Shown one piece after another: positions 6,209 through 26,496 of a stretch of 40,030 nt of DNA. Each line of letters begins with the position of its first letter. Position 1 is the first letter of the stretch. Under the pieces are notes generated by a model that did not search any database, was not told where the DNA came from, and saw nothing but the letters and a program-made list of their open reading frames with translations. Made by a program: the position numbers and the translations under genes. Origin of the DNA: Acetobacteraceae bacterium (GTDB lineage: Bacteria; Pseudomonadota; Alphaproteobacteria; Acetobacterales; Acetobacteraceae); contig CANJJS010000045.1 of assembly GCA_947474705.1 (NCBI GenBank), forward strand, positions 1-40,030, read 5' to 3'.

Positions 6209-7921
6209 TCACGCCGCGCGCGCTGTCGATTTTTGGCGGGAGGCCGCGACACGCGCCCGCACCGCCTCGACCGCTGGCCCGCGTACCGTCAATGGTGCCC
6301 GCCCCAAAGCCTCCCACGCCCGCGCCACCGCGTTCGGCGACGGGACGAATTCGGGATACAGGCGAGTGACACCACTGTTCGCGAACGACTCCCAGCACCC
6401 CGTTTCCAAACAACTCTCCACCGTCAGCCCCTGGGCCCACAACGCCTCATGTACCGCCGCGCCCGTCTCGTCCGCCAGTTCGATGTGGTAATAAGTCACC
6501 GACACCGCCCGTTCCCGAACGATCGACACCCCGTCGATCAAATAACGAACGGGAATGAGAACATCGTCCACGAAGACAGCTTGATCCGGACTCAGAAAAA
6601 GGTCCGTATGCGGCGCCCCCGGCCCAAACGCCCCCGCCCGCACCCGCACCGGCCGCATGTCCTTCGGCTTCGGATGCGCCTCCAGCCGGACAGTGCGGTG
6701 CCCGATCCAGCGTATCAGGCGGTTGGGCCCATCGACGACAGGCACCTCGTCCCCCACCGCCAATGCCTCGACCGCCACCTCCCCCTGGGCCGTGAGGATT
6801 TTCGTGCCTTGCACGAAACATTGCACCGTGATCGCCGTCCCCGCCTGCAACGTCGCCTGGCCGTTGATATAGGTGGTGAAACCGGAAACCGTCGCGCCCT
6901 TGGTCCAGTTGACCAGATCGAACGTCAGCACATCGCCCGCGTTGCCGCTGACCTTCAACGTGTTCGACAACGGCGAGAGATTGAGAAGCTCCAGCTTCGT
7001 CAACGTCAAGGAATTGTTACCCGTGCCGGTCAGGTCGATCGCCTCGATATTCAGAAGCCTCAGATCCCCGATCGCGGTCAGGTTCAGCGACATCCCCGCC
7101 CCGTCCAGCGCCAGCGTGTCCGTGCCGGTCCCGCCATCCACCCGGACAAATGTCAGATCGGACACCGACAGCGTATCGTTGCCCGCCCCGCCGCTCAGCG
7201 CGTCGGCGCCGCCCTTGCCGGCCAGCGTATCGTCGCCCAGCCCACCCACCATGTCGTCGGCGGCGCCGGTGCCGCTGAAATTATCGCCCCCCGTGGTGCC
7301 CGCATGGGTAACGGTCGAAGTAAAATCCTTCCCGAACACCACATAAACCCTACCGCCCGCCACCACGGCCGCCGGAGACGCGCTGCGTACGCCCAACAAC
7401 AGATCGGCGAACCCGTCGCGGTTCACGTCGCCCGCCGAGGACACCGCCGCCCCCAACTGATCGCTCGCGCACTGGCCATTGACGACGAACCCGCCCGTGC
7501 CGGCGGCGATCGCGCTGAGCTGAATGACCGTGCCGAAACCGGACGTTTTCCCGAAAACCACATAAGCCCTGCCGCCGTTTGCCCCCGCCGGCGGATCGGC
7601 GAGGTTCGCGCCGACAATCAGATCGTCGATGCCGTCGCCATTCACATCGCCCGCCGAGGCCGCGGATTTGCCGGACCCGTCGGTTCCCGACTCCCCGTCG
7701 ACGACGAAACCGCCCGTGCCCGCGGCGATCGTGGTGAGCGCGAGCGTGGCGGCGAAAGCGGAGGTCTTCCCGAAGACCACATAGCTTCTGCCGGCGTCGG
7801 TTCCGCCGGCCGGATCGGCGCCGACGGCACTCACGATCAGGTCGGCGATTCCGTCGCCGTTCACGTCGCCCGCGGACGCAACGGAAAGACCGAACAAATC
7901 GCTCGCCGTCTGGCCGGTCAT
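6209..7921 (-). CDS. FG-GAP repeat, RTX and Hint-domain protein, probably secreted
   Basis: The 570-residue protein has three FG-GAP (beta-propeller blade) repeats with SAGDVNGDG calcium loops at about 1-70, 70-140 and 140-205. An RTX-like calcium region follows (GGLGDDTLAGKGGADALSGGAGNDTL, quoted in part: LSGGAGNDTL) at about 215-255. A Hint domain (CFVQGTKILTAQGEVAVEAL to about residue 520) and a short basic tail complete it. RTX repeats suggest type I export without a signal peptide. Hint domains of this type may self-cleave. The ATG at 7921 begins inside a blade: in-frame codons just upstream read HTGGFL, like the TGGFVV of the other blades, and are then closed by a stop. The 5' end therefore seems trimmed. 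No transporter genes are nearby. Confidence 0.82.
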   Translation of the reverse strand: MTGQTASDLFGLSVASAGDVNGDGIADLIVSAVGADPAGGTDAGRSYVVFGKTSAFAATLALTTIAAGTGGFVVDGESGTDGSGKSAASAGDVNGDGIDDLIVGANLADPPAGANGGRAYVVFGKTSGFGTVIQLSAIAAGTGGFVVNGQCASDQLGAAVSSAGDVNRDGFADLLLGVRSASPAAVVAGGRVYVVFGKDFTSTVTHAGTTGGDNFSGTGAADDMVGGLGDDTLAGKGGADALSGGAGNDTLSVSDLTFVRVDGGTGTDTLALDGAGMSLNLTAIGDLRLLNIEAIDLTGTGNNSLTLTKLELLNLSPLSNTLKVSGNAGDVLTFDLVNWTKGATVSGFTTYINGQATLQAGTAITVQCFVQGTKILTAQGEVAVEALAVGDEVPVVDGPNRLIRWIGHRTVRLEAHPKPKDMRPVRVRAGAFGPGAPHTDLFLSPDQAVFVDDVLIPVRYLIDGVSIVRERAVSVTYYHIELADETGAAVHEALWAQGLTVESCLETGCWESFANSGVTRLYPEFVPSPNAVARAWEALGRAPLTVRGPAVEAVRARVAASRQKSTARAA

Positions 7922-11626: not shown

Positions 11627-12106
11627 TCACGCGCGCGCGTGACCGCGGAAAAATCCAAGAAACGGACCGGGCGGGACGAAGCCTTCCAGCCGCCCGCGCT
11701 CCGACCCATCGGGCCCAAACACCTGAAGCGTCGGCGTTCCCACGATCTTCATTCGTTTCGACTGCGCTTTTTCCGGCAGGCGCACGCCATCCGTGAACAT
11801 CACCTCTCGCGCGCCCGCGATATCCAATTGCACCACCGAAACATGCGCCCGCATGAACGCCGCGACCTCGGGATCGGCGAAGGTTTCCCGGTGCATGCGT
11901 GTGCAAAAAGAACAACCGGGCAGTTCCCACAGAACCGCCAGACACCGGCCCGACGCGACGGCCTCCGCCAAATCTTCCGGCAATTCCAGAAAGCTATCCA
12001 GAAACCACGGTTCCCGAAGCAGACCGTCCCCGCCCGGCGAGGCCCCCCGCGCCGCCGTGGCGAACCCGGCCGCCCCCTGCGCCAAAAGCAACCGCCGCCC
12101 GATCAT
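11627..12106 (-). CDS. Thioredoxin-fold protein of the sox locus (SoxW/SoxS-like)
   Basis: A 159-residue thioredoxin-like protein with an N-terminal export signal (RRLLLAQGAAGFATAARGA). The redox pair is Cys65-Ser-Phe-Cys68 in ELPGCSFCTRM, and the cis-Pro loop is VGTPTL. Proteins of this type in sox clusters are periplasmic thiol reductants that keep SoxYZ and other components active. Its ATG overlaps the soxX stop (12103-12106), so it is the last gene of a soxA-soxX-thioredoxin operon. Whether to name it soxW or soxS is not settled by sequence alone. Confidence 0.82.
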   Translation of the reverse strand: MIGRRLLLAQGAAGFATAARGASPGGDGLLREPWFLDSFLELPEDLAEAVASGRCLAVLWELPGCSFCTRMHRETFADPEVAAFMRAHVSVVQLDIAGAREVMFTDGVRLPEKAQSKRMKIVGTPTLQVFGPDGSERGRLEGFVPPGPFLGFFRGHARA

Positions 12107-12717
12107 GGCGCGTTCACCGGCGAGTCACGCGCCATGAGGTAAGCGGTCAGGTCCTTGATTTGCTGCTCGTTCAGCACGCGATTGTGACCGAAACGCGGCA
12201 TACTGGAACAGGCCCATGTCGCCTGCGCATTGAAAATTTTCGCGTAAACGACGCGCGCCGCCTCCGCCCCGAAGTCGCGCGATTTGCCATAACCCGCGAG
12301 CGTCGGGCCAAGCGTGCCGTGACTGATCTCCTTCGGGTCGATCTGATGGCAGGCATAGCAGTTGCCGCCACTCGCGACCCCCGGCGCATCGGAAAACTGG
12401 CCCCCTTGCCCATTCTGGGCAATCGCGGCGCCACGCCGCCAATCGCCGATCACGCCACCGTCGGCGGGATACACGATGGTCCCGGCTTCGCGCGCCTGGA
12501 TCGCGGCGGCCTCCGCCGGCGCCGGTTCGTTGCGGCTGAGGCTGCATTGCCGCTGAGTCTCATCCTGAACGACCCGGGCACGCCAGGCCTCTGGTGCCTG
12601 AGAGAAAGTCGCGGCGACCGTTTTTTCGACCAGCGCCGGGTCCGCTCGCGGGGTTTCCGCGTGCGCGGCGGCCAGGAAACCGGACAGGACCGGGATGGCG
12701 ATAAGGACAACACGCAT
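12103..12717 (-). CDS. soxX: SoxX, monoheme cytochrome c of the thiosulfate-oxidising complex
   Basis: The 204-residue periplasmic cytochrome has a signal peptide (VVLIAIPVLSGFLAAAHA), one c-type heme site CYACH (Cys120, Cys123, His124) and a distal Met ligand at Met173 in CSSMPRFG. With SoxA it forms SoxXA, which oxidatively attaches thiosulfate to the SoxY cysteine. The ATG at 12717 lies 5 bases after the soxA stop, with GGTGAGAG upstream. The open frame continues far upstream, overlapping soxA, but that part is not coding. The soxA-soxX-thioredoxin order is transcribed divergently from soxYZB. Confidence 0.92.
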   Translation of the reverse strand: MRVVLIAIPVLSGFLAAAHAETPRADPALVEKTVAATFSQAPEAWRARVVQDETQRQCSLSRNEPAPAEAAAIQAREAGTIVYPADGGVIGDWRRGAAIAQNGQGGQFSDAPGVASGGNCYACHQIDPKEISHGTLGPTLAGYGKSRDFGAEAARVVYAKIFNAQATWACSSMPRFGHNRVLNEQQIKDLTAYLMARDSPVNAP

Positions 12718-12722
12718 GACTC

Positions 12723-13532
12723 TCACCGTTTGATCGAGGGCACGGCGATGGTGGCGCCTTCGGCGTTGCTGGCCAGAAACACCGTCAGCGCCGTTAATCC
12801 ATCGGAAAGATAATCCGGACCGGGCATGCGCATTTGCCGGTAACAATCCCACAGACGATGCTGCATGGTGCGGGTTTGACTTTGCGACACACGATAAGTC
12901 GGCCAGGATCCCATCGTTTCTCTCGCTTCGGGGCCCGGTTTCGTGAAATTGGGCAGCGCCTGCAAACGGATGCGCCGTCCGTCCTCGCCATGACAGGTGG
13001 CGCAAGAGAAATCGTTAATCGCCGAACGCCGGAAGAACATCGCCTCCCCGATCGCCCGCGTTTCTCTTTCCTTCGGATGCGTCAAAGGAACCGCGAGTTT
13101 CATTCCCTGCGATTTGTTCGCGATGAAAGCGACCAGATCCTCCATGTCGCTGGTTTTGCCCGGACCGCCGAAACGGCGTGCCACGACGTCCTTGGTATCG
13201 AGGTCCTGCAATGCGCGCATGCAGAAGAACAAACGTTGCTCAAGATCCATGACGCGATCCGCGTCGGCGAAGTAACGTGGAAGCTTCGCATAGGCGCCTT
13301 CCAGCACACCGGCCCCCAGCCCAAGGTCGCACCGTTCCAGCGAAACATTTTTCGTTCCACGCGCGGCCGTCCAAAGCTTCTCGCCGCGATCCACGGCGAG
13401 ATAACCCGGATTGGCCATGGGATCGGCGATCATGGACCGGTAACGTTCAATCTCCTTCTCGCTCTCCTCCTGTGCCGCCACGGGAACCACGGCGACAAGC
13501 AGGAGCAGCAAAGATATTGAAACCCAACGCAT
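12723..13532 (-). CDS. soxA: SoxA, cytochrome c subunit of SoxXA (single-heme type)
   Basis: The 269-residue protein has a clean signal peptide cut after VVPVAA. The C-terminal domain carries the heme site CATCH (Cys177, Cys180, His181) and the active-site cysteine Cys230 in LWDCYRQMR, the residue that becomes a persulfide. The N-terminal domain has Cys68 and Cys104 but no CxxCH, so this is the monoheme class with a disulfide in place of the first heme. Paired with SoxX it conjugates thiosulfate to SoxYZ. GGAGG lies 7-11 bases before the ATG. The gene opens the minus-strand operon and faces soxY across a 127-base gap. Confidence 0.93.
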
Positions 13533-13659: not shown

Positions 13660-14118
13660 ATGCGAAGCGCGGCTTCAGGCGCGGCGGCCTTGCAACGCCG
13701 CGTATTTCTGACCCTTACCGGGGCGAGTCTTCTCGCCGCGCCCTGGGCGCGCGGCGCCTGGGCCGACGTCCCGGAGATGAAAAAATTACTGGCGGGACGC
13801 ACACCGAAACAAGGCGGAATCACACTCGACGTCCCCGCGATCGCCGAAAATGGCATGGTCGTACCGCTGAACATCGCGGCCGAAAGCCCCATGACGGACG
13901 CCGATCACATCAAGACACTTCACGTGTTCGCCGAAGGCAACCCCAACCCAATGGTCGCCAGCTTTTCCTTCACCCCGGAATGCGGCCGCGCCGCCGCCTC
14001 GACCCGCATGCGCCTCGCGCAAACACAAAACATCGTTGTGCTCGCGGAAACATCCACCGGCGAGGTGCGCGTCGCGAACGCCGAGGTCAAGGTCACCATC
14101 GGCGGTTGCGGCGGTTAA
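13660..14118 (+). CDS. soxY: SoxY, covalent sulfur carrier subunit
   Basis: This 152-residue protein ends in the hallmark GGCGG tail; Cys150 carries the sulfur intermediates during thiosulfate oxidation. The N-terminus contains RRVFLTLTGASLLAAPWARGAWA, shown here in part as RRVFLTLTG, a twin-arginine export signal, as expected for a SoxY folded with SoxZ before export. Three in-frame ATGs exist (13615, 13621, 13660). The last is chosen because GGAG lies 6 bases upstream and the earlier starts put extra residues before the Tat motif. soxZ follows after 13 bases, so SoxY and SoxZ would be co-translated. Confidence 0.93.
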   Translation: MRSAASGAAALQRRVFLTLTGASLLAAPWARGAWADVPEMKKLLAGRTPKQGGITLDVPAIAENGMVVPLNIAAESPMTDADHIKTLHVFAEGNPNPMVASFSFTPECGRAAASTRMRLAQTQNIVVLAETSTGEVRVANAEVKVTIGGCGG

Positions 14119-14131
14119 GGGAGAAACGATC

Positions 14132-14425
14132 ATGGCCACACCCACACCGCGCATCCGGCTTCCCGCGACCGCCAAAGCCGGCGAAATCGTCGAGATCAAA
14201 ACCCTGATCTCCCACGACATGGAATCCGGCCAGCGCAAGGACGCCGAAGGCAAAATCGTTCCGCGCAAAATCATCAACCGCTTCGAGGCCCGGTTCGCCG
14301 ACAAACTGGTCTTCGCCGCCGACTGGAATCCCTCGGTCTCGGCGAATCCCTACCAGTCGTTTTTCATGAAAGTCACGGTATCCGGAGAATTCGCGTTCTC
14401 CTGGTTCGACGACGATGGCAGCGTA
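14132..14425 (+). pseudogene. soxZ: soxZ, 5' part (codons 1-98), interrupted by foreign DNA
   Basis: The reading frame from ATG 14132 (AAGGGAGAA upstream) encodes a normal SoxZ through IKTLISHDMESG, NRFEARF, ANPYQSFFMK and WFDDDGSV. After GTA at 14423-14425 the sequence becomes unrelated, and the frame runs on through a Pro/Arg-rich tail to a stop at 14516-14518. The missing end (YKATAKIAVA and stop) is found at 15780-15812. SoxZ is the partner of SoxY and presents substrates to SoxXA and SoxB; the last beta strand of its Ig-like fold is lost here. The altered 128-residue product would probably misfold. Confidence 0.9.
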
Positions 14426-14442
14426 ACCGGGCGCCCGAATAT

Positions 14443-15779
14443 GTGGCTCCGACCCAAGAGGCTCCCGCTCCCAAGCCCCCCACTCCCCAGGTCGCGCCGC
14501 CCTGGAAGACGAACATGACGCCGCCGGGGGCAAAGCCTGAGCCAGCCTCAAAACCGGAGGCAAAACCGGAAGCGAAGCCAGAAGAACCGAAGACCGCCGA
14601 TGATGGAGATCGCTTCGGCGAAGCCGCCTATGAGCGAGCCAAAGCGCGCCTTCGCGAAAAAATGAACCGGATGAACTCGGGGTTCGATCCCGAGATGATG
14701 CTCGATGGCCTGACCATCGCCGGTTATCACATCAAAAAAGGCGCCCGTGCGTTTACCGATTTTGCCAAGCAGATGATCGGCGACCTGGGCACTGGTATTC
14801 GTCCCCGCGTGCGCCAATTTTACGAGATGGTTCGGAACGAGCCAGACTTTGAGACCAAAGGCATGGACGATCATGCCAAGGTCGAAGCGCACCAAAGAAG
14901 CCTGATGGAGATCCCCGAAGCCGATCTCGCAACCAACCATGAGGCGGCGATCAATCGGGCGCTCGGAGTGGAGAGGGAGAACGGAAATGGAGTTCAAGGG
15001 CCCATACCTGGACGCGATGATCGCCCAGAATCCGAAAATGTTCATGGGCCTTCGGAAGTCGGGGAGGCTGGAATCCCACCTTCAGGAGAAGTCAAAACAG
15101 GCCCACAAGATGCTGAAGAACCTTCTGGCGGACAAACCGAAGGGGGCGGACGGGTGGCCGAAGAACCCGCAGGAGGAACAGATAGCGGAAGAGATCGTGA
15201 GGGCGACTTTGATCGACTTCCCGGCCCCCCTGCCGAGTCAAAGCCCGGAGCCGCCGGACGACCTGCCGAAGCGCCGGACGAATGGGTCGTAGGAAAAAAT
15301 TTCAGGATTGAACCAGGAGCGTTAGCAGAGGGCCGGGGCCCGGTCACCAAGGCCAGAGATAACCTCGCCGCGATCGAGTTGGCGAAGAAGCTGATTGCGG
15401 ACAACCGACCCGCTTCCAAGGAAGAACAGCAGGCCCTGGCAAAATATGTCGGTTGGGGCGGTTTGTCTGGTGTCTTCCCCAATCCAGCGACGGGAAAGTT
15501 CGGGGGGGGATTGGAGAAAGCAGGCGAGCGCTTGCGCGATATCCTGACACCGGAAGAGTATGAAGCCGCTGCGGCCAGCACTCAGAATGCCCACTACACG
15601 CCGGAACACGTCATCCGCTCCATGTGGGATACGGTTGAGCGGATGGGCTTCAAGGGAGGCTCTGTGTTTGAGCCCGGCATGGGGGTCGGGCACTTCGCCG
15701 GATTGATGCCTACCGATATCGCCGCACGTTCCGCGTACGAAGGGATCGAGATGGATCACCTGACGGCCGGAATCGCAAA
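14443..15779 (+). pseudogene. Fragment of N12-class DNA methylase / DarB-like polyvalent protein
   Basis: The frame begins without a natural start (GTG 14443 is the first usable codon) and encodes a Pro/Ala/Lys-rich stretch. A helical module follows (MLDGLTIAGYHIKKGARAFT, FAKQMIGDLG) of the kind found in large polyvalent proteins, then a low-complexity Gly/Glu/Pro linker. The signature N12 start comes next: GRGPVTKARDNLAAIELAKK, LAKYVGWGGLSGVF, NAHYTPEHVIRSMW. Methyltransferase motif I is in SVFEPGMGVGHFAG. It stops after GIEMDHLTAGIAN, before the NPPY motif and the helicase part, so catalysis is impossible. Intact relatives of over 1500 residues are antirestriction or DNA-modifying proteins of phages and conjugative elements. 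The frame is open straight into soxB. Confidence 0.8.
14987..15292 (+). CDS. Small ORF overlapping the methylase fragment in the +1 frame
   Basis: A 101-residue acidic-basic protein starting MEFKGPYLDAMIAQNPKMFM with helical, well-mixed sequence (LESHLQEKSKQAHKMLKNLL, QEEQIAEEIVRATLIDFP) and a Pro-rich tail. AGAGGGAG ends 7 bases before the ATG, a good ribosome site. The larger frame over the same bases encodes only a low-complexity linker, so this small frame looks more gene-like than its host here. It is not recognised. It may be a real nested gene of the parent mobile element, still intact inside the inserted segment. Confidence 0.5.
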   Translation: MEFKGPYLDAMIAQNPKMFMGLRKSGRLESHLQEKSKQAHKMLKNLLADKPKGADGWPKNPQEEQIAEEIVRATLIDFPAPLPSQSPEPPDDLPKRRTNGS

Positions 15780-15812
15780 TACAAGGCAACCGCGAAAATC
15801 GCGGTCGCCTGA
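15780..15812 (+). pseudogene. soxZ: soxZ, 3' part (last ten codons and stop)
   Basis: Read in the frame starting at 15780 this encodes YKATAKIAVA followed by TGA at 15810-15812, the expected C-terminal strand of SoxZ. One base separates it from the soxB ATG. It restores the soxZ reading frame exactly when joined to 14425. In its present setting it is read in another frame as part of the methylase-SoxB open frame. Confidence 0.85.
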
Positions 15813-15813
15813 C

Positions 15814-17496
15814 ATGGTGTCACGCCGCGACTTTTTCCAGGCGGCGGTGGCGCTGTCGCTGGCCGGAAGCGGCGGTTTGAAACAAGCGGCGGCGGGACAG
15901 AAAATCCGGCAGGACGATCTGTTGCGATTTCAGCCACTGGGACAGGCGACATTGCTGCATCTGACCGACCTGCACGCGCAACTCACGCCAATCCGGTTTC
16001 GCGAGCCATCGGTCAACCTCGGTGTCGGCGAAGCCAAGGACCGGGCGCCGCATCTGACTGGCGCGGCGTTTCGCGACGCGTTCGGGATCGCGGCCGGGTC
16101 GCCCGACAGCCACGCCCTGACCTCGGACGATTTCGTGGCGCTGCCGCGGGAATACGGACGCATGGGCGGCCTCGACCGAATCGCGACACTTGTCGGCGCG
16201 ATCCGCGGGGAAAGAGGGCCGGAGCGGGTCTTGCTGCTGGATGGCGGCGATACCTGGCAGGGCAGTTGGGGCGCGTTACAAACGCGCGGCGGAGACATGG
16301 CCGCCTGCATGGCCCTGCTCCGCCCGGACGCCATGACCGGACATTTCGAATTCACCCTGGGCCAGGACCGGGTCAAAGAACTGGCCGCCAGTCAGACATT
16401 CCCTTTTCTGGCCGGTAACATTACCGACGAGTGGAAAGAGCCGGTCTTCGAGGCCTGGAAAATCGTCGAACGCGGCGGGATTCGCATCGGAATCGTCGGC
16501 CAGGCGTTTCCCTATACCCCCGTGGCCAATCCCGGCTGGCTGGTCCCCGACTGGACCTTCGGACTCCAGGAAGAGCTGGTACGCGGCCATGTCCGCGCGG
16601 CCCGCGCCGCCGGAGCGGAGATCGTCGTGCTGTTGTCGCACAATGGCTACGACACCGACCGCAAAATGGCCACGCGCGTCGAGGGGATCGACATCCTGCT
16701 GTCCGGCCACACCCACGACGCGATGCCGCGGCCGGAGGTCGTTGGCGGCACGGTGCTGGTCGCCTCCGGATGTTACGGAAAGTTCTTGTCGCGTATCGAC
16801 ATCGACGTGAAGGCCGGGCGCCTCGCCGGCTGGCGGCACCGTTTGATTCCCGTGTTCTCCGACGCGATCGAGCCCGACCCCGCGATGGCGGCGGCGATCG
16901 CCAAGGTTCGGGCGCCGTTCGCCGCCGACCTCGCGCGGGAAGTCGGACGGACGGAAACATTGCTTTATCGGCGCGGCAACGTGAACGGCGCCTTCGACGA
17001 TCTGATTTGCGACGCGATGCTGGAACAGCGCGACGCGGAAATCGCCTTGTCGCCCGGATTTCGCTGGGGCCCGACGCTCCTGCCGGGCGAGGCGATCCGC
17101 GCGGAGGATATCTATAACAGCACGGCCATTACCTATCCGGAATGCTACCGCACCGTCATGACCGGCGCGCGCCTGCATGAGATCATGGAAGATGTCGCGG
17201 ACAATCTGTTCAATCCCGATCCGTACTATCAGCAGGGCGGCGACATGGTCCGGGTTGGCGGACTGTCTTATGTGTTCGAACCCGCGGCGCCGATGGGCAA
17301 GCGCGTGCGCGGCATGATCGCGACACGAACCGGCGCGCCCATCGAGGCCACGCGCGATTACATCGTCGCCGGCTGGGCCAGCGTCAATCGCGGCACACAA
17401 GGTCCGCCGATCTGGAAGGTGGTCGAGGACCATTTGAAACAGCGCGGGACCGTCCGTCCCTCCAACATCGAAACCGTCAGAATCGTCGCGAACTGA
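15814..17496 (+). CDS. soxB: SoxB, sulfate thiol hydrolase
   Basis: The 560-residue metallophosphatase-fold enzyme releases sulfate from the sulfonated SoxY cysteine in the periplasm. The N-terminus MVSRRDFFQAAVALSLAGSG is a twin-arginine signal. Metal-binding motifs are HLTDLHAQLTPI, LDGGDTWQGS, TGHFEFTLG, LSHNGYDTDR and LSGHTHDAMP; the C-terminal 5'-nucleotidase domain includes RGNVNGAFDDLI and NSTAITYPECY. The usual SoxB motif GHWEF is GHFEF here. In the uninterrupted cluster soxB would start one base after the soxZ stop and depend on its translation. The insertion removed that context and left soxB in frame with the upstream methylase fragment. The protein itself is intact. Confidence 0.93.
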   Translation: MVSRRDFFQAAVALSLAGSGGLKQAAAGQKIRQDDLLRFQPLGQATLLHLTDLHAQLTPIRFREPSVNLGVGEAKDRAPHLTGAAFRDAFGIAAGSPDSHALTSDDFVALPREYGRMGGLDRIATLVGAIRGERGPERVLLLDGGDTWQGSWGALQTRGGDMAACMALLRPDAMTGHFEFTLGQDRVKELAASQTFPFLAGNITDEWKEPVFEAWKIVERGGIRIGIVGQAFPYTPVANPGWLVPDWTFGLQEELVRGHVRAARAAGAEIVVLLSHNGYDTDRKMATRVEGIDILLSGHTHDAMPRPEVVGGTVLVASGCYGKFLSRIDIDVKAGRLAGWRHRLIPVFSDAIEPDPAMAAAIAKVRAPFAADLAREVGRTETLLYRRGNVNGAFDDLICDAMLEQRDAEIALSPGFRWGPTLLPGEAIRAEDIYNSTAITYPECYRTVMTGARLHEIMEDVADNLFNPDPYYQQGGDMVRVGGLSYVFEPAAPMGKRVRGMIATRTGAPIEATRDYIVAGWASVNRGTQGPPIWKVVEDHLKQRGTVRPSNIETVRIVAN

Positions 17497-17530: not shown

Positions 17531-18499
17531 CTATTCGGCGGCGATCCCGGCGGCCTTGATGACCTTCCCCCACCGTTCGGTCTCCGATTTCTGGAAAGCC
17601 GCCATCTGCTCGGTGGTGCCGGCGATGTTGTTCAACCCCTGCGAGAACAACAATTCCCGGACATCCGCCATGCCCGCGACCTTACCGATCGCGTCGTTCA
17701 ACACTTTGACGATCGCCGGCGCCGTGCCGGCCGGCGCCCAGATGCCATACCAGGTCCCCACATCGAACCCGGCGTATCCAAGTTCGATGGCCGTCGGAAT
17801 ATCCGGCGCCTGCGGCATCCGCTGGGCACCCGTCGTCGCCAGCGCCCGGAGCTTGCCCGCTTTAATGTAAGGCAACGACTGCGTCGGATTGTTGAACATC
17901 ATCATGACATGACCAGCCAGCAGATCGTTCACCGCCGGAGCACCCCCTTGATAGGGCACATGGATCAGATCGATGCCGGCGACCTGCTTGAACATTTCCA
18001 CCGACAAATGCGTCGGGGCACCGACACCGCCACCCGACGCGAAGGTGATCGTCCCCGGTTTCGCCTTCGCCGCGTCGACCAGTTCCCGCAGGCTGTTCAC
18101 CGCGAAGGAGGGATGCACCACCGCGATCAGCTTGTAATCGAACACAAGTCCAACCGGCGTGAAATCCGTGACCGGATCGTAACCCGGCGCCTTGTACAGC
18201 ATCGGATTGATCACCAGGGACGAGGCGTGGAACAGCAGCGTGTACCCGTCCTTCGCCGATCGCGCGACCATTTGCGATGCGATATTGCCATTGGCGCCGG
18301 AACGATTTTCGACCACCATGGGCTTTCCCAGAATCTCTCCCATTTTGTTCGCGTAGAGACGGCCGACCAGATCGGTCGGCCCGCCCGGCGGATAGGGAAT
18401 CACCAGCCGGATCGGCTTCGCCGGAAAATCCTGCGCGGCGGCGGGCAAGACCGCCAAGGCTCCCAGAAGAAACAAGCCAAGTTTAACGAAAAGCCGCAT
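17531..18499 (-). CDS. Bug/TctC-family periplasmic substrate-binding protein (1 of 7)
   Basis: A 322-residue receptor of the tripartite tricarboxylate transporter type. A Sec signal (VKLGLFLLGALAVLPAAAQ) precedes the family start FPAKPIRLVIPYPPGGPTDL. MVVENRSGANGNIA, LIHVPYQGGAPAVNDLLAG and the GTWYGIWAPAGTP region that closes the ligand pocket follow. These proteins bind small carboxylates in the periplasm and deliver them to TctAB, or act as sensors without a partner. No membrane subunits are adjacent. ATG 18499 gives the normal signal length; the longer frame upstream adds non-family residues. It follows another Bug gene on the same strand by 92 bases. Confidence 0.9.
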   Translation of the reverse strand: MRLFVKLGLFLLGALAVLPAAAQDFPAKPIRLVIPYPPGGPTDLVGRLYANKMGEILGKPMVVENRSGANGNIASQMVARSAKDGYTLLFHASSLVINPMLYKAPGYDPVTDFTPVGLVFDYKLIAVVHPSFAVNSLRELVDAAKAKPGTITFASGGGVGAPTHLSVEMFKQVAGIDLIHVPYQGGAPAVNDLLAGHVMMMFNNPTQSLPYIKAGKLRALATTGAQRMPQAPDIPTAIELGYAGFDVGTWYGIWAPAGTAPAIVKVLNDAIGKVAGMADVRELLFSQGLNNIAGTTEQMAAFQKSETERWGKVIKAAGIAAE

Positions 18500-18591
18500 G
18501 GAGAAAATCCTGTCAAAGGCCAGAGTGCCAATCGCGGGCGCCCGCCGGGAACCTGTCAATGCCGGGACCGCACACGCGCGCGTGTCCTGGG

Positions 18592-19554
18592 CTACTCGAT
18601 CTTAATGCCCGCGCTCTTGATCACCTCCGACGTCGCCTTCCAGTCCTCGTCCCAAATCTTCCGGACTTCGTCGATGCTCGCGATCACCGGAATATTGGCG
18701 ACACGCTGCATCGTGGCTTTCCAGTCCGGAGTCGCGGAGATCTCGTTGATCTTGGCGTTCAGCGACGTCACGATCTCCTTGGCCGTGCCCGGCGGGGCAT
18801 ACAAACCGAACCAGCTCGCCATGTCCGCGTCCTTCACCCCGCATTCCGTCAGGGTCGGCGTATCCGGAAACTCCACGAACCGGGTCGGCGTGCTGACGTT
18901 CAGAAGGGTCAACTTCCCGGCTTTGACATGCGGAAAGGTCGAGGCCTCGTTCATCAACTGAATATTGCCCGCGAGCAAATCCTGAAGACTCTCCGCCCCG
19001 CCGCGATAGGGGATATGGGCGATATCGACGCCGGTCCGGAATTTCAGCATCTCAAGCCGCATATGCGGCTGTGTGCCCAGACCCGAAGATCCGTAATTGA
19101 GCTTGCCGGGATTTTTCTTCGCGTGATCGATGAACTCCGCGAAGGTCTTCGGTCCAACCCCGGGATGAATCGTAAAGCCCGAAACGCCATTGCCCAGATG
19201 CGCGACCGCCACGAACTGCCGCGCGTCGAATTTCAATTTGTACAGCAACGGCACACCCACCGTCGCGGTGTTGCCGGTGAACAGAAACGTGTGCCCATCC
19301 GGTGCCGCGCGGAATGCCGCCTCGTTGCCAATCATTCCCGAGGCGCCGCTGCGGTTTTCGATCACGAATTGCTGCCCGTAGGCGCGACTCAAGGCCTCCG
19401 ACCAGGGGCGAGCGACCAGATCGGTGGCCCCACCCGCGGGGAACGACACAATCAACCGCACCGGCCGCGACGGCCATGCCTGGGCGTACGCCTTCGCCAC
19501 GAACGGCGAGGCCATCGATCCAGCGGCGATTTTCAGAACGTCGCGACGGCGCAT
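18592..19554 (-). CDS. Bug/TctC-family periplasmic substrate-binding protein (2 of 7)
   Basis: A 320-residue receptor whose N-terminus MRRRDVLKIAAGSMASPF is a twin-arginine-like signal cut near AYAQA. PVRLIVSFPAGGATDLVARP, FVIENRSGASGMIGNEAAF and IAHIPYRGGAESLQDLLAG mark the family, and the C-terminus ends SAGIKIE. AACAGGAGAAAA precedes ATG 19554, so the upstream ATG that would add 13 residues is less likely. Its closest relative in the window by motif pattern is the receptor at 23973-24950, which shares the WPSRP/WPDKP start and YGQQFVIENR. Ligand unknown. Confidence 0.9.
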   Translation of the reverse strand: MRRRDVLKIAAGSMASPFVAKAYAQAWPSRPVRLIVSFPAGGATDLVARPWSEALSRAYGQQFVIENRSGASGMIGNEAAFRAAPDGHTFLFTGNTATVGVPLLYKLKFDARQFVAVAHLGNGVSGFTIHPGVGPKTFAEFIDHAKKNPGKLNYGSSGLGTQPHMRLEMLKFRTGVDIAHIPYRGGAESLQDLLAGNIQLMNEASTFPHVKAGKLTLLNVSTPTRFVEFPDTPTLTECGVKDADMASWFGLYAPPGTAKEIVTSLNAKINEISATPDWKATMQRVANIPVIASIDEVRKIWDEDWKATSEVIKSAGIKIE

Positions 19555-19720
19555 GGCGTTTTCTCCTGTTTCTTTTCGCGTTGAGGCGAACATGGTTCGA
19601 CCGCCCCTCCCCCGTCAATCCGGCGGGCATGACGAACACGCCGAATGGCGCTTATCATGACCGCCAACGGACAAGCAGCCGCCGCCGCGCGGCCAAAAAA
19701 GAATGAGGGAGGAAACAACG

Positions 19721-20683
19721 ATGTTCCGTCGATTGATGTTCGCGCTCGCCGGTTTGTGCCTGACCGCGGCCAGCGCCCTGGCGCAACCCGCCCCGAACTG
19801 GCCGGCCAAACCCGTCCGAATCATCGTGCCCTACGCCCCCGGCGGCTCGACCGACAACGGCGTGCGGCCGGTCATGGAGCGCGTCTCCACCGCGCTGGGC
19901 CAGCAATTCGTGATCGAAAACCGCGGCGGCGCCTCCGGCGTCGTCGGCACCGAGGCCGGGGTTCGCGCCGCGCCCGACGGCTATACCTTCTTCGTCGTGC
20001 CGGTCGCCACCGCCACCGTGCTGCCGGCGGCGCGCAAGATGCCCTACGACAGCGTCAAGGACATGGTGCCGGTCTCAAAGGTGTTCGAGAACACGCTGGT
20101 GTTCGCCATCCACCCCTCCGTCCCCGCGACGACGATGGAGGAGTTCGCCGCCCATGCGCGGAAAAACCCCGGCAAGCTGGTGTTCGGCTCCTCGGGGCTG
20201 GGGACGCTGACGCAGATGGTGTGCGAAAGCGCCCGCTTCGCCGGGAAGTTCGACATGCTGCACGTGCCCTATCGCGGCGGCGGCGAGGCCCTGGCCGACT
20301 TCCTGGCGGGCCACGTCCAGGTCCATTGCGAGGGCAACGTGCTACCCCATGTCAAAGCGGGCAAGGCGCGTCTCCTGGCGGTCGCCGACAACGAACGCCA
20401 TCCGGACTTCCCCGATGTCCCGATGCTCAAGGAAATCTGGCCCGACGCGGATGCGATGAGTTGGGCGGGACTCTTCGCGCCCGTCGGCACGCCTGACGCC
20501 ATTATCCGCCGCCTCAGCGCCGAAATGATCAAAGTGGCCGCCGATCCGGAGTTGAAGGCGCAGATGCTGCGCCTCGCGGTGCGGCCCGCCGCCAGCACGC
20601 CAGAGGATCTGGCGGCCGCGCTACGGAAGGACGCCGAACGCTATGGCAAGCTGGTGCGAGACCTGAACATCAAGATGGACTGA
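19721..20683 (+). CDS. Bug/TctC-family periplasmic substrate-binding protein (3 of 7)
   Basis: A 320-residue receptor with a Sec signal (RLMFALAGLCLTAASALAQ). PVRIIVPYAPGGSTDNGVRP, FVIENRGGASGVVGTEAGV and MLHVPYRGGGEALADFLAG are followed by a WAGLFAPVGTPDA pocket segment and the C-terminal DLNIKMD. The STDNG and ADN(S/G) loop is shared only with the two plus-strand receptors at 21936 and 22953, indicating a local duplication group. GAGGGAGGAAAC precedes the ATG. It is divergent from receptor 2 and convergent with the TerC-family gene, whose stop is only 9 bases away. Confidence 0.9.
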   Translation: MFRRLMFALAGLCLTAASALAQPAPNWPAKPVRIIVPYAPGGSTDNGVRPVMERVSTALGQQFVIENRGGASGVVGTEAGVRAAPDGYTFFVVPVATATVLPAARKMPYDSVKDMVPVSKVFENTLVFAIHPSVPATTMEEFAAHARKNPGKLVFGSSGLGTLTQMVCESARFAGKFDMLHVPYRGGGEALADFLAGHVQVHCEGNVLPHVKAGKARLLAVADNERHPDFPDVPMLKEIWPDADAMSWAGLFAPVGTPDAIIRRLSAEMIKVAADPELKAQMLRLAVRPAASTPEDLAAALRKDAERYGKLVRDLNIKMD

Positions 20684-20692
20684 CCCGCCCGC

Positions 20693-21637
20693 TCAGCCGC
20701 GGGCCTTGCCCACCATGCGCCCGGCGATCTCCGCGATCAGCAGCGCGATCCCCGCGCCAATCAGCGGGCCGGCCGTATGGGTCAGCGTTTTCATCGTCGC
20801 GCCATCGGCCGGCGCCAGCAGGGTCTCGGCACCCGTATAACCCGCCAAACCCACCGCGAAGCTCACGATCAGCGGCGCGCGCGCCAATACCAGTTCGCCG
20901 GTCATCACGATCAAGGCGCGCAGCCCGAACAGCGCGGCGGGCGCGGCCGTGGCTTCCGCGACGTCCGCGGGCTCGTGAACCCGCGCGGGCGCGAAGAACT
21001 TGCCGACATCCACGACCAGCGCGGCGCAGACCAACGGCGCGACAATGTGCAACCAATGCGCATGGGCGTCGATCCAGGGTTGCACCATGGGATCGGAAAC
21101 CACCACCTCCCCGCCGACATATCCGATCAACGCCGCGCCAAGCGTCACGATGAAGGGGAAGCGCTTGATCAACGCCATCATCAGCGTCGCGCCGTAAACG
21201 ACCAGGGGGATCGAAATCACCAGGCCCAGAACCAGCAGCACGAGGTTGCCCTTGGCCGCGGCCGCGACGGCCAGGACATTGTCCAGGCTCATGACCGCGT
21301 CGGCGATGACGATGGTGCGGATCGCGCCCATCAGATGGCCAGGCGCGGCGACCCCATCCTCGCCGGCTTCCTCCTCGACCATCAGCTTGTAGCCAACCCA
21401 CAGCAACAAAAGCCCGCCCGCCACCTTCAGCAACGGGATGGCCATCAGCCAGGTGACGAACACCGTGAAGACGATCCGCAGCACCACCGCGGCGCCCGCG
21501 CCAAGGATGACCCCGGTTTTTTGCTGAGGTGGCGGCAGCGACCGGCAGGCGAGGGCGATGACCACCGCGTTGTCGCCGGACAGAATGATGTTGATGCCGA
21601 TGATTTCCAGCAGCGCGACGAAAAACGCGAGATCCAT
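20693..21637 (-). CDS. TerC-family integral membrane protein (YjbE/YkoY type)
   Basis: The 314-residue protein has about eight membrane helices. It starts FVALLEIIGINIILSGDNAV and repeats a related acidic membrane motif in IVIADAVMSLDNVLAVAA; the SGDNA and SLDNV aspartates are the conserved pair of the family. TerC relatives export manganese or other metals, or assist loading of metal into exported proteins; which applies here is not known. Its ATG is 7 bases after the stop of a possible 32-residue leader ORF. A second Asp/Glu-poor half (LFGLRALIVMTGELVLARAP onward) resembles another TerC-like repeat. Confidence 0.85.
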   Translation of the reverse strand: MDLAFFVALLEIIGINIILSGDNAVVIALACRSLPPPQQKTGVILGAGAAVVLRIVFTVFVTWLMAIPLLKVAGGLLLLWVGYKLMVEEEAGEDGVAAPGHLMGAIRTIVIADAVMSLDNVLAVAAAAKGNLVLLVLGLVISIPLVVYGATLMMALIKRFPFIVTLGAALIGYVGGEVVVSDPMVQPWIDAHAHWLHIVAPLVCAALVVDVGKFFAPARVHEPADVAEATAAPAALFGLRALIVMTGELVLARAPLIVSFAVGLAGYTGAETLLAPADGATMKTLTHTAGPLIGAGIALLIAEIAGRMVGKARG

Positions 21638-21644
21638 GACTCAA

Positions 21645-21743
21645 TTAGCCTTTTTCTTGCGATGGGCGGGCACGCCAGATCGGCATGGGCCGCGCGGGTG
21701 TATGCGTCGCGAGGCCCGGCGGCGAAACATGACCGATTTTCAT
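21645..21743 (-). CDS. Candidate 32-residue leader peptide upstream of the TerC-family gene
   Basis: ATG 21743 is preceded by AGGGAG at good spacing and encodes MKIGHVSPPGLATHTPARPM followed by PIWRARPSQEKG, ending 7 bases before the TerC start. The TerC gene has no strong ribosome site of its own apart from AAGG inside the leader end, so translation may be coupled. The Pro-rich content (SPPG, ARPMP) could slow ribosomes. This is a small ORF in a GC-rich region and may be chance. Confidence 0.35.
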   Translation of the reverse strand: MKIGHVSPPGLATHTPARPMPIWRARPSQEKG

Positions 21744-21935
21744 GCGGGGCTCCCTGGACAATGCCCGGTTCTGACGCCGGCCTGGGCGTGCGTCTATCAT
21801 TCCCGCGAGGGACAGGGAAGTAATCGGCGCCAGACGGTTGAGTTTATTGATTTTCATCAATATTCAATCGCGGGTTTTCCTTGCCTGCCGCGGTGTTTAG
21901 GTTGCGGCCACGGTCAATGGTGGCGGAGGGAATTC

Positions 21936-22901
21936 ATGGACAGACGAACGGCGCTTTTGGGTCTCGCGGCGATGGGGTTGTCCGGGCGCGGCGCATCGGC
22001 GCAATCGGCTGGGGACTGGCCCATGAAACCGGTCAAGGTCATCGTCAACTATCCGCCCGGCGGGTCGACGGACAATGGCACCCGTCCCTTCACGGATCGC
22101 CTGTCCGGCCTGCTGGGTCAGCAATTCGTGATCGAGAACAAGGGCGGCGCGTCGGGCGCGGTCGGGGTGGAGACCGGGGTCAAATCGGCGCCGGACGGAT
22201 ATACGTTTTTCGTCACGCCGGTCGCGGCGCTGACGCTGCTGCCGAACGCGCGGCCGACCCCGTACAATCCCTTTAAGGACATGGCGCCGGTGTCCCGGTT
22301 CGTGGACTCGACCTTCGTGGTCGCCGTGCATCCGTCCGTTCCGGTCTCCACGCTGCCGGAACTCATCGCCTACGGCAAAAAGAACCCCGGCAAGCTCACC
22401 TTCGGCTCCTCCGGACTGGGCACATTGACCCAGATGGTGTGCGAAGGCGTCAATCAGGCCGGCGGGATCGACATGCTGCATGTGCCGTATCGCGGCGGCG
22501 CGGAATCGCTGGCCGATTTCCTCGCGGGCGTCACGCATGTCTTTTCCGAAGGCAACATCCTGCCGCACGTGAAAGCCGGAAAGGCGAAGCTGCTGGCGAT
22601 CGTGGACGTCAAACGCCACCCCGATTTCCCCGATGTCCCGCTGCTGACCGATTTCTATCCGGACCTGACGATCCTGAACTGGTTCGGCATGTTCGCCCCG
22701 GCCGCCACGCCGCAACCGATCGTGCGGAAACTGTCGGAAGCGCTGAACAAGATCGCCCGCATGCCGGAAGTCGAGGCGCATCTGCTGAAATTCGCCCTCC
22801 GCCCAAACCCAGGCACGCCAGAGGAACTCGCGGCGCAGGTGCGCAAGGATTACGATCTGTACGGGAAGATGGTGCGGGAGTTGAAGATCAAAATGGACTG
22901 A
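21936..22901 (+). CDS. Bug/TctC-family periplasmic substrate-binding protein (4 of 7)
   Basis: A 321-residue receptor with the N-terminus MDRRTALLGLAAMGLSGRGA, an Arg-Arg signal possibly using Tat, cut after ASAQ. Family markers are VKVIVNYPPGGSTDNGTRP, FVIENKGGASGAVGVETGV, MLHVPYRGGAESLADFLAG and LNWFGMFAPAATPQP, with the C-terminus ELKIKMD. GGAGG lies 7 bases before ATG 21936. It is followed after 51 bases by receptor 5 on the same strand, and the two are very similar along their length, pointing to tandem duplication. Ligand unknown. Confidence 0.9.
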   Translation: MDRRTALLGLAAMGLSGRGASAQSAGDWPMKPVKVIVNYPPGGSTDNGTRPFTDRLSGLLGQQFVIENKGGASGAVGVETGVKSAPDGYTFFVTPVAALTLLPNARPTPYNPFKDMAPVSRFVDSTFVVAVHPSVPVSTLPELIAYGKKNPGKLTFGSSGLGTLTQMVCEGVNQAGGIDMLHVPYRGGAESLADFLAGVTHVFSEGNILPHVKAGKAKLLAIVDVKRHPDFPDVPLLTDFYPDLTILNWFGMFAPAATPQPIVRKLSEALNKIARMPEVEAHLLKFALRPNPGTPEELAAQVRKDYDLYGKMVRELKIKMD

Positions 22902-22952
22902 TCGGAGACGCCGCGCGCATCCGACGAAAAAACAAACGACAGGGAGGTAAAG

Positions 22953-23930
22953 ATGCGAATCGCACACGGACTCAGAATTCTCATGTTGGCGCTCGGCCTG
23001 GCCGGGCCCGCCGCGATGGCCCAAAGCCCGGACCCGGCGGCGAGCTGGCCGAACAAGCCGGTGAAGCTGATCGTCAATTTCGGACCGGGCGGGTCGGCGG
23101 ACAACTCCGCGCGGCCCTACGCCGAACGTCTGTCCCGCGCTCTTGGCCAGCAATTCGTGATCGAGAACAAAGGTGGCGCCTCGGGCGCTCTGGGCCTGGA
23201 AGCGACGATGAAGTCGGCGCCGGACGGATATACGTTCGTCGTCACGCCCGCGCTGTCGATGGTGATCATGCCGCATCTGCGGAAAACCCCGTTCGATACG
23301 CTGAAGGATTTCATGCCGGTCAGCGCCTTCACCGACGGCACGCTGCTGTTCGCCGTGCATCCGTCCCTGCCCGTTTCGAACATGAAGGAGTTCGTCGCCT
23401 ACGCGAAGCAAAACCCCGGCAAGCTGAGCTGGGGCACCGCCGGGTTCGGATCCCACGGACATATGCTTTGCGAGATCGTCAAATTGACCGCCGGCATCGA
23501 CATCCTGCACGTGCCCTATCGCGGCGGCGGGGAATCGCTGGCGGACTTCCTCGCGGGTGTGGTGCAGATCCACGCCGATCCCAACACCATGCCGCATGTG
23601 ACCGCCGGGAAAGGCAGGCTTCTGGCGGTTCTGGACCGGGCGCGTTTGCCGGCTTTCCCGGATGTGCCCGTGCTGAAAGAGGTCTATCCGGAGATCGATT
23701 TCCTCGCGTGGTTCGGCATGTTCGCCCCGGCCGGCACGCCACAGTCCATCGTCAATAAAATGAGCGCCGAACTGGCGAAAATCTCCCGCGACCCGGAGAT
23801 GAAGCCATACCTGGCGAAATTCGCCCTGGCGCCGAACCCCGGCACGCCGGAGGAACTGGCGAAGACCATGAAGGAAGATTTCGAGCGCTACGGGAAGCTG
23901 GTGAAACAATTGAACATGCGGATGGATTGA
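22953..23930 (+). CDS. Bug/TctC-family periplasmic substrate-binding protein (5 of 7)
   Basis: A 325-residue receptor with a Sec signal (GLRILMLALGLAGPAAMAQ). It has VKLIVNFGPGGSADNSARP, FVIENKGGASGALGLEATM, ILHVPYRGGGESLADFLAG and LAWFGMFAPAGTPQS, ending QLNMRMD. AGGGAGG precedes the ATG at 22953. Sequence and position mark it as a tandem paralogue of receptor 4, and the pair is probably one transcript ending at the strong hairpin at 23938-23964. The pocket-lining segments differ between the two, so they may take different acids. Confidence 0.9.
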   Translation: MRIAHGLRILMLALGLAGPAAMAQSPDPAASWPNKPVKLIVNFGPGGSADNSARPYAERLSRALGQQFVIENKGGASGALGLEATMKSAPDGYTFVVTPALSMVIMPHLRKTPFDTLKDFMPVSAFTDGTLLFAVHPSLPVSNMKEFVAYAKQNPGKLSWGTAGFGSHGHMLCEIVKLTAGIDILHVPYRGGGESLADFLAGVVQIHADPNTMPHVTAGKGRLLAVLDRARLPAFPDVPVLKEVYPEIDFLAWFGMFAPAGTPQSIVNKMSAELAKISRDPEMKPYLAKFALAPNPGTPEELAKTMKEDFERYGKLVKQLNMRMD

Positions 23931-23937
23931 GACCGGC

Positions 23938-23964
23938 CCGGCGCGCCCGGACGGGGCGCGCCGG
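23938..23964. terminator. Strong hairpin between convergent Bug genes
   Basis: A perfect 11-bp stem, CCGGCGCGCCC with GGGCGCGCCGG, and a 5-base loop lie in the 42-base gap between the ends of the receptor genes at 22953-23930 (plus) and 23973-24950 (minus). The position suits a bidirectional terminator; no T-run follows. Confidence 0.55.
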
Positions 23965-23972
23965 ACGGACCC

Positions 23973-24950
23973 TCATTCCAGCTTGATGTTCGCGTCCCGG
24001 ATCAAGTCCCCCGTCGCCTTGATATCGGCCACAAGGTGCTGGGCGATCTGTTCCGGCGTCTGGAGCGGCACCTCGATGTTGATGGCGCGCATCTTCGCCT
24101 TCATGTCGTCGGTGGCCGCGATCTCGACCATCTTGGCGTTCAGTTTCTCGACGATCCCCTTGGGCGTGCCCGCCGGCGCCTGCATCGAGTACCAGATCGG
24201 CACGTCGGACTCCGGATAACCCAGTTCCGTCAGCGTCGGCACGTCCGGAAAATCCGGGTGCCGCGTCGAATGGTTGATGTTCAGCAGGATCAACTTCCCC
24301 GCTTTCACGTGCGGGAGCGGATTGATTTCGTTCATCGTCTGCACGTTGTTCGCCAGCAGATCGGTCAACGCGTCCGCGCTGCCGCGATAAGGCACATGCA
24401 GGATGTCGATCTTCGCCCGGTGTTTCAGCATCTCGACGCGCAACTGGCTCGACGTGCCAAGGCCCGCGGATCCGTAGGCGAGCTTGCCGGGGTTCGCTTT
24501 GGCGAAAGCGATCATGTCCTTGAACGTCTTCGGACCCGCCGAAGGGTGGATCACGAAACCGCAGACCAGATCGCCGACGCGCGCGATCGGCGTGAAGCTC
24601 TTGATCGGATCGTAAGGCGCTTTCCGCATCAGCGGCAGCACGGTCAGCGTCCCGCCCGGCGCGAAGAACAGCGTGTACCCGTCCGGAGGCGACTTCGCCG
24701 CCGCCTCGGTCCCGATCATCCCGCCCGCGCCGCCGCGATTCTCAATCACGAACTGCTGGCCATAGGCCTGAGAGAGTTTCTCGGCCCATGGCCGCGCCAT
24801 CAGGTCGGATGCGCCGCCCGGCGCGTAGGGCACGATCAGTTTGACCGGCTTGTCCGGCCAGTTCTGCGCCTGCGCCAGCGCGGTTCCGTTCCGGACGATC
24901 GCGGCGGCGGCGAGCGCGCCGCCCGCCGTCAGTAGTTTCCGGCGCCGCAT
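23973..24950 (-). CDS. Bug/TctC-family periplasmic substrate-binding protein (6 of 7), last gene of tct operon
   Basis: A 325-residue receptor starting MRRRKLLTAGGALAAAAIVR, a twin-arginine-like signal cut near ALAQA. It has VKLIVPYAPGGASDLMARP, FVIENRGGAGGMIGTEAAA, ILHVPYRGSADALTDLLAN and the C-terminus DANIKLE. AAGGAGT lies upstream of ATG 24950. It follows tctA by 37 bases on the same strand, so it is probably the receptor that feeds the TctAB permease, together with or instead of the receptor gene at the head of the operon (27018-27977). Confidence 0.9.
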   Translation of the reverse strand: MRRRKLLTAGGALAAAAIVRNGTALAQAQNWPDKPVKLIVPYAPGGASDLMARPWAEKLSQAYGQQFVIENRGGAGGMIGTEAAAKSPPDGYTLFFAPGGTLTVLPLMRKAPYDPIKSFTPIARVGDLVCGFVIHPSAGPKTFKDMIAFAKANPGKLAYGSAGLGTSSQLRVEMLKHRAKIDILHVPYRGSADALTDLLANNVQTMNEINPLPHVKAGKLILLNINHSTRHPDFPDVPTLTELGYPESDVPIWYSMQAPAGTPKGIVEKLNAKMVEIAATDDMKAKMRAINIEVPLQTPEQIAQHLVADIKATGDLIRDANIKLE

Positions 24951-24987
24951 GGGAGTCACTCCTTCGGTTGGGGCCGCGGGTGATGGA

Positions 24988-26496
24988 TTATTCGACAAAC
25001 GCCACCTCCCGCGCTTTTCGGATGTTCGGCAGCAACACGATAACCAGCAGAACCGCCGCGAGCGCCAGGAAGGACGCCGAAAGCGGCCGTTCGATGAACA
25101 CCATGGCGTCGCCGCGCGACAGCAGCATCGCCCGGCGCATGTAGACTTCCAGCAGCGGGCCAAGGATGAAGCCGAGCAGGAGCGGCGCGGGCTCGCAGTC
25201 CAGTTTGAAGAACAGGTAGCCGAGCAGACCGAAGACCGCGATGAACAGCACCTCGTTGGCCGAGTTGTTCAGGCTGTAAACGCCGATGCAGCAGAAGAAC
25301 AGGATGGCGACGGACATCAGACGGTAGGGCACCATCAGCATCCGCACCCAAAGCCCGATCATCGGCAGGTTCAGAACGATCAGCATCAGATTGCCGAGCC
25401 ACATCGACGCGATCATGCCCCAGAACAGGCCGGGCCGGTCGGTCATCACCTGCGGGCCCGGCACGATCCCGTGGATCATCATGCCGCCGATCATCATCGC
25501 CATGACGGCATTGGACGGAATACCCAGTGTCAGCATCGGGATGAAGGAGGTCTGCGCCGCCGCGTTGTTCGCCGATTCCGGCCCCGCCACGCCCTCGATG
25601 GCGCCTTTGCCGAAGCGCGACGGGTCCTTCGCCAGCTTCTTCTCGACCGTATAGGACGAGAACGACGCGAGCACGGCGCCGCCGCCGGGCAGAATGCCCA
25701 GGAAGCCGCCAAGGATGGTGCCGCGGAGGACGGGCATGGCGCTGGCTTTCAGGTCCGCCCAGGTCGGCATCAGGCCGGTGACCTTGGATGTGACGAGGTC
25801 GCGCCGTTCGGCGTTGGTCATGTTGGCCATGATCTCGGCCATGCCGAACAGGCCCATGACCAGCGGCACGAAGCCGATGCCGTCGAACAGGTCGCTGATG
25901 CCGAAGGTGTAGCGGAGGTTGCCGGTGTTCACGTCGGTGCCGACGAGGCCGAGCAGCATGCCAAGGAAGACCATGCCCAGGGCTTTGACGACGGAGCCGC
26001 GGGCGAGGACGATGGCGAAGACGAGGCCCAGCACCATCAGCGAGCAGTAATCGGCCGGCGCGAATTTCTGCGCCACTTTGGTCAGCGGCGGCGCGGCGAC
26101 CGCGATCGCCACCGTCGCCACGCAGCCCGCGAAGAACGACCCAATCGCGGCGATCGCCAGCGCCGCGCCCGCGCGCCCCTGCTTCGCCATCTGGTAGCCG
26201 TCCAGCACGGTGACGACGCTACTACTCTCTCCGGGTAGGTTGATCAGGATCGCCGTGGTGGAACCGCCGTACTGCGCGCCGTAATAGATGCCGGCGAGCA
26301 TGATCAGCGCGCCCTCGGGCGGCAGGTAATAGGTCGTGGGCAGCAGCAGCGCCATGGTGGCGACCGGACCGACGCCGGGCAGCACGCCGATGGCGGTGCC
26401 GACCAGCGCGCCCATCAGGCACCAGAACATGTTGGCGGGGGTCGCCGCGACCGAGAAGCCGAGGGCGAGATTGCTGAAGAGATCGGTCAGTTCCAT
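24988..26496 (-). CDS. tctA: TctA, large membrane subunit of tripartite tricarboxylate transporter
   Basis: The 502-residue protein has about twelve membrane helices and the family signatures GVLPGVGPVATMALLLPTTY, AGIYYGAQYGGSTTAILINL and GILPGGGAVLASFSSYTVEK, with ESANNAAAQTSFIPMLTLGI. TctA forms the solute channel that imports tricarboxylates or related acids, driven by ion gradients, using a periplasmic TctC/Bug receptor. ATG 26496 lies inside the end of tctB (10-base overlap) with AAGG upstream; the longer frame upstream is not membrane-protein-like in that region. Operon order on the minus strand is Bug, tctB, tctA, Bug. Confidence 0.94.
   Translation of the reverse strand: MELTDLFSNLALGFSVAATPANMFWCLMGALVGTAIGVLPGVGPVATMALLLPTTYYLPPEGALIMLAGIYYGAQYGGSTTAILINLPGESSSVVTVLDGYQMAKQGRAGAALAIAAIGSFFAGCVATVAIAVAAPPLTKVAQKFAPADYCSLMVLGLVFAIVLARGSVVKALGMVFLGMLLGLVGTDVNTGNLRYTFGISDLFDGIGFVPLVMGLFGMAEIMANMTNAERRDLVTSKVTGLMPTWADLKASAMPVLRGTILGGFLGILPGGGAVLASFSSYTVEKKLAKDPSRFGKGAIEGVAGPESANNAAAQTSFIPMLTLGIPSNAVMAMMIGGMMIHGIVPGPQVMTDRPGLFWGMIASMWLGNLMLIVLNLPMIGLWVRMLMVPYRLMSVAILFFCCIGVYSLNNSANEVLFIAVFGLLGYLFFKLDCEPAPLLLGFILGPLLEVYMRRAMLLSRGDAMVFIERPLSASFLALAAVLLVIVLLPNIRKAREVAFVE

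Follow-up and report, generated by a model that had tools for sequence, protein, structure and literature searches.

A soxZ gene interrupted near its end by a foreign-looking fragment of a DarB-like gene

The interrupted gene and its neighbors

The window analyzed here is a whole contig of 40,030 bp (C45) from the draft genome of an Acetobacteraceae bacterium (205 contigs, 5.48 Mb, 99.27% complete, 3.2% contaminated). It carries a cluster of sox genes in which soxZ lies in two pieces, separated by DNA whose open frame runs on into soxB:

12103..12717, reverse strand: soxX (TIGR04485, 90.4 bits against a cut-off of 61, in the frame 12103–13005; start ATG 12717–12715 placed by reading)
12723..13532, reverse strand: soxA (TIGR04484, 232.3 bits, cut-off 110)
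13660..14118, forward strand: soxY with a GGCGG arm (TIGR04488 SoxY_true, 131.5 bits, cut-off 125)
14132..14425, forward strand: first 98 codons of soxZ (Pfam SoxZ positions 1–92 of 98; identical to residues 1–98 of the database protein P0001)
14132..14518, forward strand: soxZ as currently read in its broken form (128 residues), with a stop that overlaps the ATG at 14515 (ATGA)
14426..15779, forward strand: insert, apparently an interior segment of a DarB-like polyvalent gene (frame 14428–15777, 450 codons, no stop)
14515..17496, forward strand: fused insert–soxB open frame (993 codons from ATG 14515; 1017 from GTG 14443)
15780..15812, forward strand: last 10 codons of soxZ and stop (identical to residues 99–108 of P0001)
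15814..17496, forward strand: soxB (TIGR04486, 775.8 bits, cut-off 550)

The composition of the contig, taken in 5-kb pieces, falls inside the sampled host range, and window positions 20000–38000 are matched in all 33 genomes of a search of the genus (its own included), so we reject an error of binning. A stretch of 560 RpoB residues shows 75% identity to Tistlia and to a Reyranella, and 91–92% to two genomes of the same genus; a search of G000 for a 16S gene gave none.

A preliminary description of this DNA proposed that soxZ is split by a clean insert of 1,354 bases, and that the end missing from the 5′ part lies one base before soxB; both proposals are borne out. The 5′ part ends ...WFDDDGSV at GTA 14423–14425, and the gene resumes at 15780 with YKATAKIAVA and a stop. 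Removal of 14426–15779 rebuilds a protein of 108 residues that is identical throughout (108/108) to P0001, the best match in a protein search with the broken 128-residue frame as query. P0001 comprises three member sequences and comes from one contig of 1,188 bp, separate from the window contig. Because it is identical to the reconstruction, an uninterrupted soxZ exists, an allele known here through its protein. The rebuilt protein matches TIGR04490 in full (positions 2–98 of 98, 106.8 bits; cut-off for true SoxZ, 76 bits), and the broken frame reaches only positions 2–91 of 98 in that family and 1–92 of 98 in Pfam SoxZ, its last ten residues being replaced by 30 unrelated ones. In the predicted structure of intact SoxZ the final strand spans residues 98–107, with a mean confidence of 94 over residues 101–108; the model of the broken form retains a strand at 98–109, with a confidence of 60 over residues 101–110. 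On these models, loss of folding is likely.

The extended form is not seen among the relatives compared, and we reject a naturally extended SoxZ, a possibility that the preliminary description had left standing. The protein search gave 1,066 matches, and the 120 listed are 107–115 residues long and lack the 128-residue ending; the second-best, after P0001, is 88% identical across the aligned part. When the named soxB loci are examined (best 80 of 587), a SoxZ match is found in 76 and ends normally in all 76; no SoxZ match was found in the other four loci (L122, L124, L129, and L132). SoxZ-family proteins occur in 29 of the 59 genomes searched. At the DNA level, matches to the sox genes in 23 genomes of the same genus do not exceed about 105 bases, and the long matches come from two genomes of other families (G034 and G024), both with a normal soxZ end, so the cluster may be rare in the genus.

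The insert matches the interior of a DarB-like gene

The insert looks foreign by composition, in agreement with the earlier proposal. Among 198 host pieces of the same length, taken from 20 sampled contigs, none has a tetranucleotide distance as large as that of the insert (0.409), and seven have a GC content at or below its value of 0.60. When the comparison is made with the rest of the window, four of 360 pieces deviate as strongly, and those listed away from the insert belong to the low-GC start of the contig. Third-position GC is 0.61, vs 0.67–0.87 in ten native genes of the window. The insert is present as a single copy in its own genome, and its protein is matched in 11 of the 59 genomes searched (own included), at no more than 45% identity outside its own copy.

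One frame of the insert is open for 450 codons, while the other five carry 4 to 15 stops. The insert is homologous to DarB-like proteins: it matches the antirestriction family phrog_10089 (DarB-like) with an E-value of 7e-100, the best stretch covering profile positions 1515–1727 of 4647. Eight PHROG families are matched in all, the other seven more weakly and labeled DNA methyltransferase, endolysin, or unknown; no Pfam and no NCBIfam family is found. A translated search returned 66 phage and 1,231 plasmid records, none of which reaches 60% identity, and the 20 of the 66 phage records that are listed are 34–46% identical, many of them annotated DarB-like.

In viral loci (best 80 of 293, a set that includes some near duplicates) the segment matching the insert lies inside a larger open frame in 80 of 80, and that frame continues for at least 100 residues upstream in all 80 and downstream in 78. 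In 34 loci the match begins no later than residue 70 and reaches the end of the insert, and in each of these the frame continues on both sides. One database relative, P0122, is collinear with the insert in a single piece (insert residues 69–450 with 375–747 of 1464). The right end of the insert falls in a conserved stretch (EGIEMDHLTAGIA) and the left end in a proline-rich linker. As the open frame extends beyond both ends in viral relatives, the insert is, on this comparison, a segment cut arbitrarily from the interior of a much larger gene, and as such probably has no function of its own.

DarB-like polyvalent proteins, such as DarB of phage P1, carry on a single polypeptide a domain termed LPD36, an adenine methyltransferase, and a SWI2/SNF2 helicase, according to an excerpt of the report that describes them (PMC5512222). 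Read against the architecture given in that excerpt, the last third of the insert would correspond to LPD36 and the early methyltransferase, and the slice would end early in the methyltransferase. Its resemblance to these proteins is to internal positions of phrog_10089, and it differs from them in size, with about 450 residues where many viral relatives have about 3,000 or more. It lacks a complete methyltransferase fused to a SWI2/SNF2 helicase and ends where relatives continue, and is thus a piece and not a working member of the family.

The donor was not found: exact peptide patterns of the insert recovered no relative from genome contigs, viral contigs gave relatives of up to 58% identity, and the closest database proteins are 66–70% identical over 122–164 residues. 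Among the database candidates that were scored (7,995 and 7,997, with length limits applied), the insert is carried by P0121 only.

The joints bear no marks of transposition

When the insert is removed the joined flanks read GCGTATACAAGG, and the junction falls at the center of the palindrome GTATAC, between A and T; a 6-base palindrome at this point is a 1-in-64 coincidence by chance. GTATAC is not avoided as a restriction site might be (24 observed vs 24.0 expected on both strands of 20 stretches, the window, and C110, another contig of the genome), and we reject that idea. The shared ‘TA’ flank noted in the preliminary description is not a target duplication, because a duplication of TA at the joined GTATAC would put the frame out relative to intact P0001. 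No duplication of two bases or more is present (0–1 base, at most one ambiguous A). Terminal inverted repeats are likewise absent, the scores lying below the shuffle mean at 30, 60, and 100 terminal bases, and searches of the insert against Pfam, NCBIfam, and PHROG find no transposase or recombinase. The likeness to disruption by an insertion sequence goes as far as a gene split by about 1.3 kb, and it fails in the transposase, the inverted repeats, and the duplication of two or more bases, all of which are lacking here. These absences uphold the earlier view that the insert does not look like the product of normal transposition, and together with the position of both ends in mid-gene in relatives they lead us to reject transposon and recombinase readings.

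The ends of the insert are not notably similar to the flanks, at least 104 of 500 shuffles reaching each score in a comparison confined to the bases of the slice itself. The joint between insert and soxB recurs in P0121, a protein of 705 residues (three member sequences, one contig) that starts within the insert at TTG 15379 and continues into soxB; it is identical to the window frame after its first residue, and its longest contig measures 27,511 bp vs 40,030 bp for the window. The joint between soxZ and insert is seen only in the window.

How the fragment may have arrived

The two joints, the identical intact protein on another contig, a slice assigned to a known family, and the lack of transposon marks are together best explained, we think probably correctly, by a real and recent illegitimate insertion, in which a break in soxZ was sealed with a captured 1,354-bp fragment of a phage or plasmid. 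The chromosome would have broken inside soxZ, between GTA and TAC, and the fragment, from a phage or plasmid that shared the cell, would have been caught between the ends as the break was joined. The clean joint centered on GTATAC would be accounted for if both the break and the fragment that filled it were blunt. The insert frame is open and free of decay, which suggests that the insertion is recent.

Such an event is ordinary in kind and already known, and the present one is an unusually clean example. A study of Streptomyces describes five insertions, from 30 bp to 18.8 kb long, at breaks that had been repaired, and suggests that transfer may be promoted by end joining (PMC5869714, in excerpt). 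The likeness lies in the joining of additional DNA, of similar size, into a break; in the Streptomyces cases, as that excerpt presents them, end joining is active and the inserts come from the same genome, whereas the present genome gave no Ku match and its insert appears foreign. Bacterial end joining is reported mainly to lose bases (PMC10932983, in excerpt), and no base is lost at either soxZ joint, in contrast to the trimming typical of end joining. A search of the genome (99.27% complete) gave no match to Ku, which counts against canonical, Ku-dependent end joining; Ku is matched in nine of 23 genomes of the same genus, one match being weak and partial. End joining is also said, in the title of a 2019 article by Dupuy, to acquire heterologous DNA. 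Our guesses as to how a genome with no Ku match could have sealed the break are that a phage brought a ligase, or that a Ku gene has since been lost or is missing from the draft. Within a limited collection of literature, we found no paper on an interrupted soxZ or on captured phage insertions.

An artifact of assembly or library preparation, in which a population with intact soxZ had a foreign fragment stitched into its sequence, is unlikely in our judgment, yet it is the alternative to which most weight must be given. The draft is fragmented into 205 contigs with 3.2% contamination, an identical intact SoxZ sits on a contig of just 1,188 bp, and the soxZ–insert joint is confined to the window; the database entries of P0001 and P0121 leave their source blank, and both could derive from the same sample as the window. 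However, two joints that together restore the frame and every residue of the protein are unlike chance stitching, and the insert–soxB joint also occurs on a contig of another length, that of P0121.

Illegitimate capture of a fragment must also be set against two origins in larger or mobile elements. The insert could be what is left of a larger insertion (prophage, plasmid, or conjugative element) after a later reduction in size, and its gene family does occur on phages and plasmids, but the slice is one collinear piece with a fully open frame and shrinkage would have had to stop exactly at both edges of the target, all of which makes this origin improbable. Single-strand transposons, Helitron-like elements, and serine recombinases leave no target duplication, and an element of such a kind would suit both the missing duplication and an insertion between A and T at the center of GTATAC. 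We nevertheless consider it very improbable: the insert contains no recombinase family and no inverted repeat above shuffles, both of its ends are mid-gene in relatives, it has a single copy in the genome, and P0121 is its only other carrier among the scored protein candidates (7,995 and 7,997, within length limits).

A stronger version of the capture reading, which we advance as a doubtful one, is that a bacterium without Ku took a blunt-ended piece of phage or plasmid DNA into a chromosome break under natural conditions, with no loss on either side, and that empty and filled alleles both circulate in its population. If true, it would point to a precise joining route, Ku-independent or supplied by a phage (through its ligase, for example), by which bacteria lose genes, much as organelle DNA is inserted in eukaryotic nuclei. 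Foreign fragments without mobility genes escape catalogues of elements and readily go unnoticed. In this case the intact protein is documented and the family of the insert is named, which the preliminary description did not offer, and with an intact protein, a filled site, and a nameable source family, the event becomes datable and the joining mechanism testable.

Consequences for the sox cluster

The cluster had been described as otherwise intact. This holds for soxX, soxA, soxY, and soxB, all in the window, and is weakened with regard to soxC: no SoxC-type family appears among the window frames scanned with Pfam, and the best match in the genome (159.5 bits) is below the cut-off of 420. The genome also contains a second soxZ (C110, 9138–9416), which the preliminary description had raised as an alternative to loss of thiosulfate oxidation; it stands beside SoxA and a SoxY paralogue of the AACIE type. 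Use of this other soxZ is possible, though its partner SoxY is of a different type. The second soxZ and the lack of a soxC match above cut-off weaken the physiological claim. As a caution, a sox cluster that looks complete in a draft genome may not mean that the organism oxidizes thiosulfate.

The insertion may also affect soxB. Its own ATG at 15814 remains, and because the frame from ATG 14515 reads through the insert into soxB, some of the protein may be produced in fused form, in which its export signal would be buried.

Other features of the contig and genome

The second soxY–soxZ–soxA set (C110, 8389–10201) adjoins genes for molybdopterin-cofactor-binding and 2Fe-2S proteins. Next to the sox genes of the window, positions 17531–28013 hold five genes for tripartite tricarboxylate receptors (TctC) and one TctA gene. 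The low-GC start of the contig includes a serine resolvase gene (1147–2004, PF00239) and is possibly the edge of a mobile region, and the frame at 6209–7921 encodes FG-GAP repeats and a Hint domain. A repeat of about 300 bp at 28047–28351 is a nearly full palindrome with a predicted fold of -231.5 kcal/mol; full or partial copies at 68–95% identity occur on seven of 20 sampled stretches of the same genome, and at least eight places in the genome match it at 83–93%. CAGCTG is nearly absent (2 observed vs 97.8 expected on both strands of 20 stretches, the window, and C110), a pattern that selection by a PvuII-like restriction system might produce.
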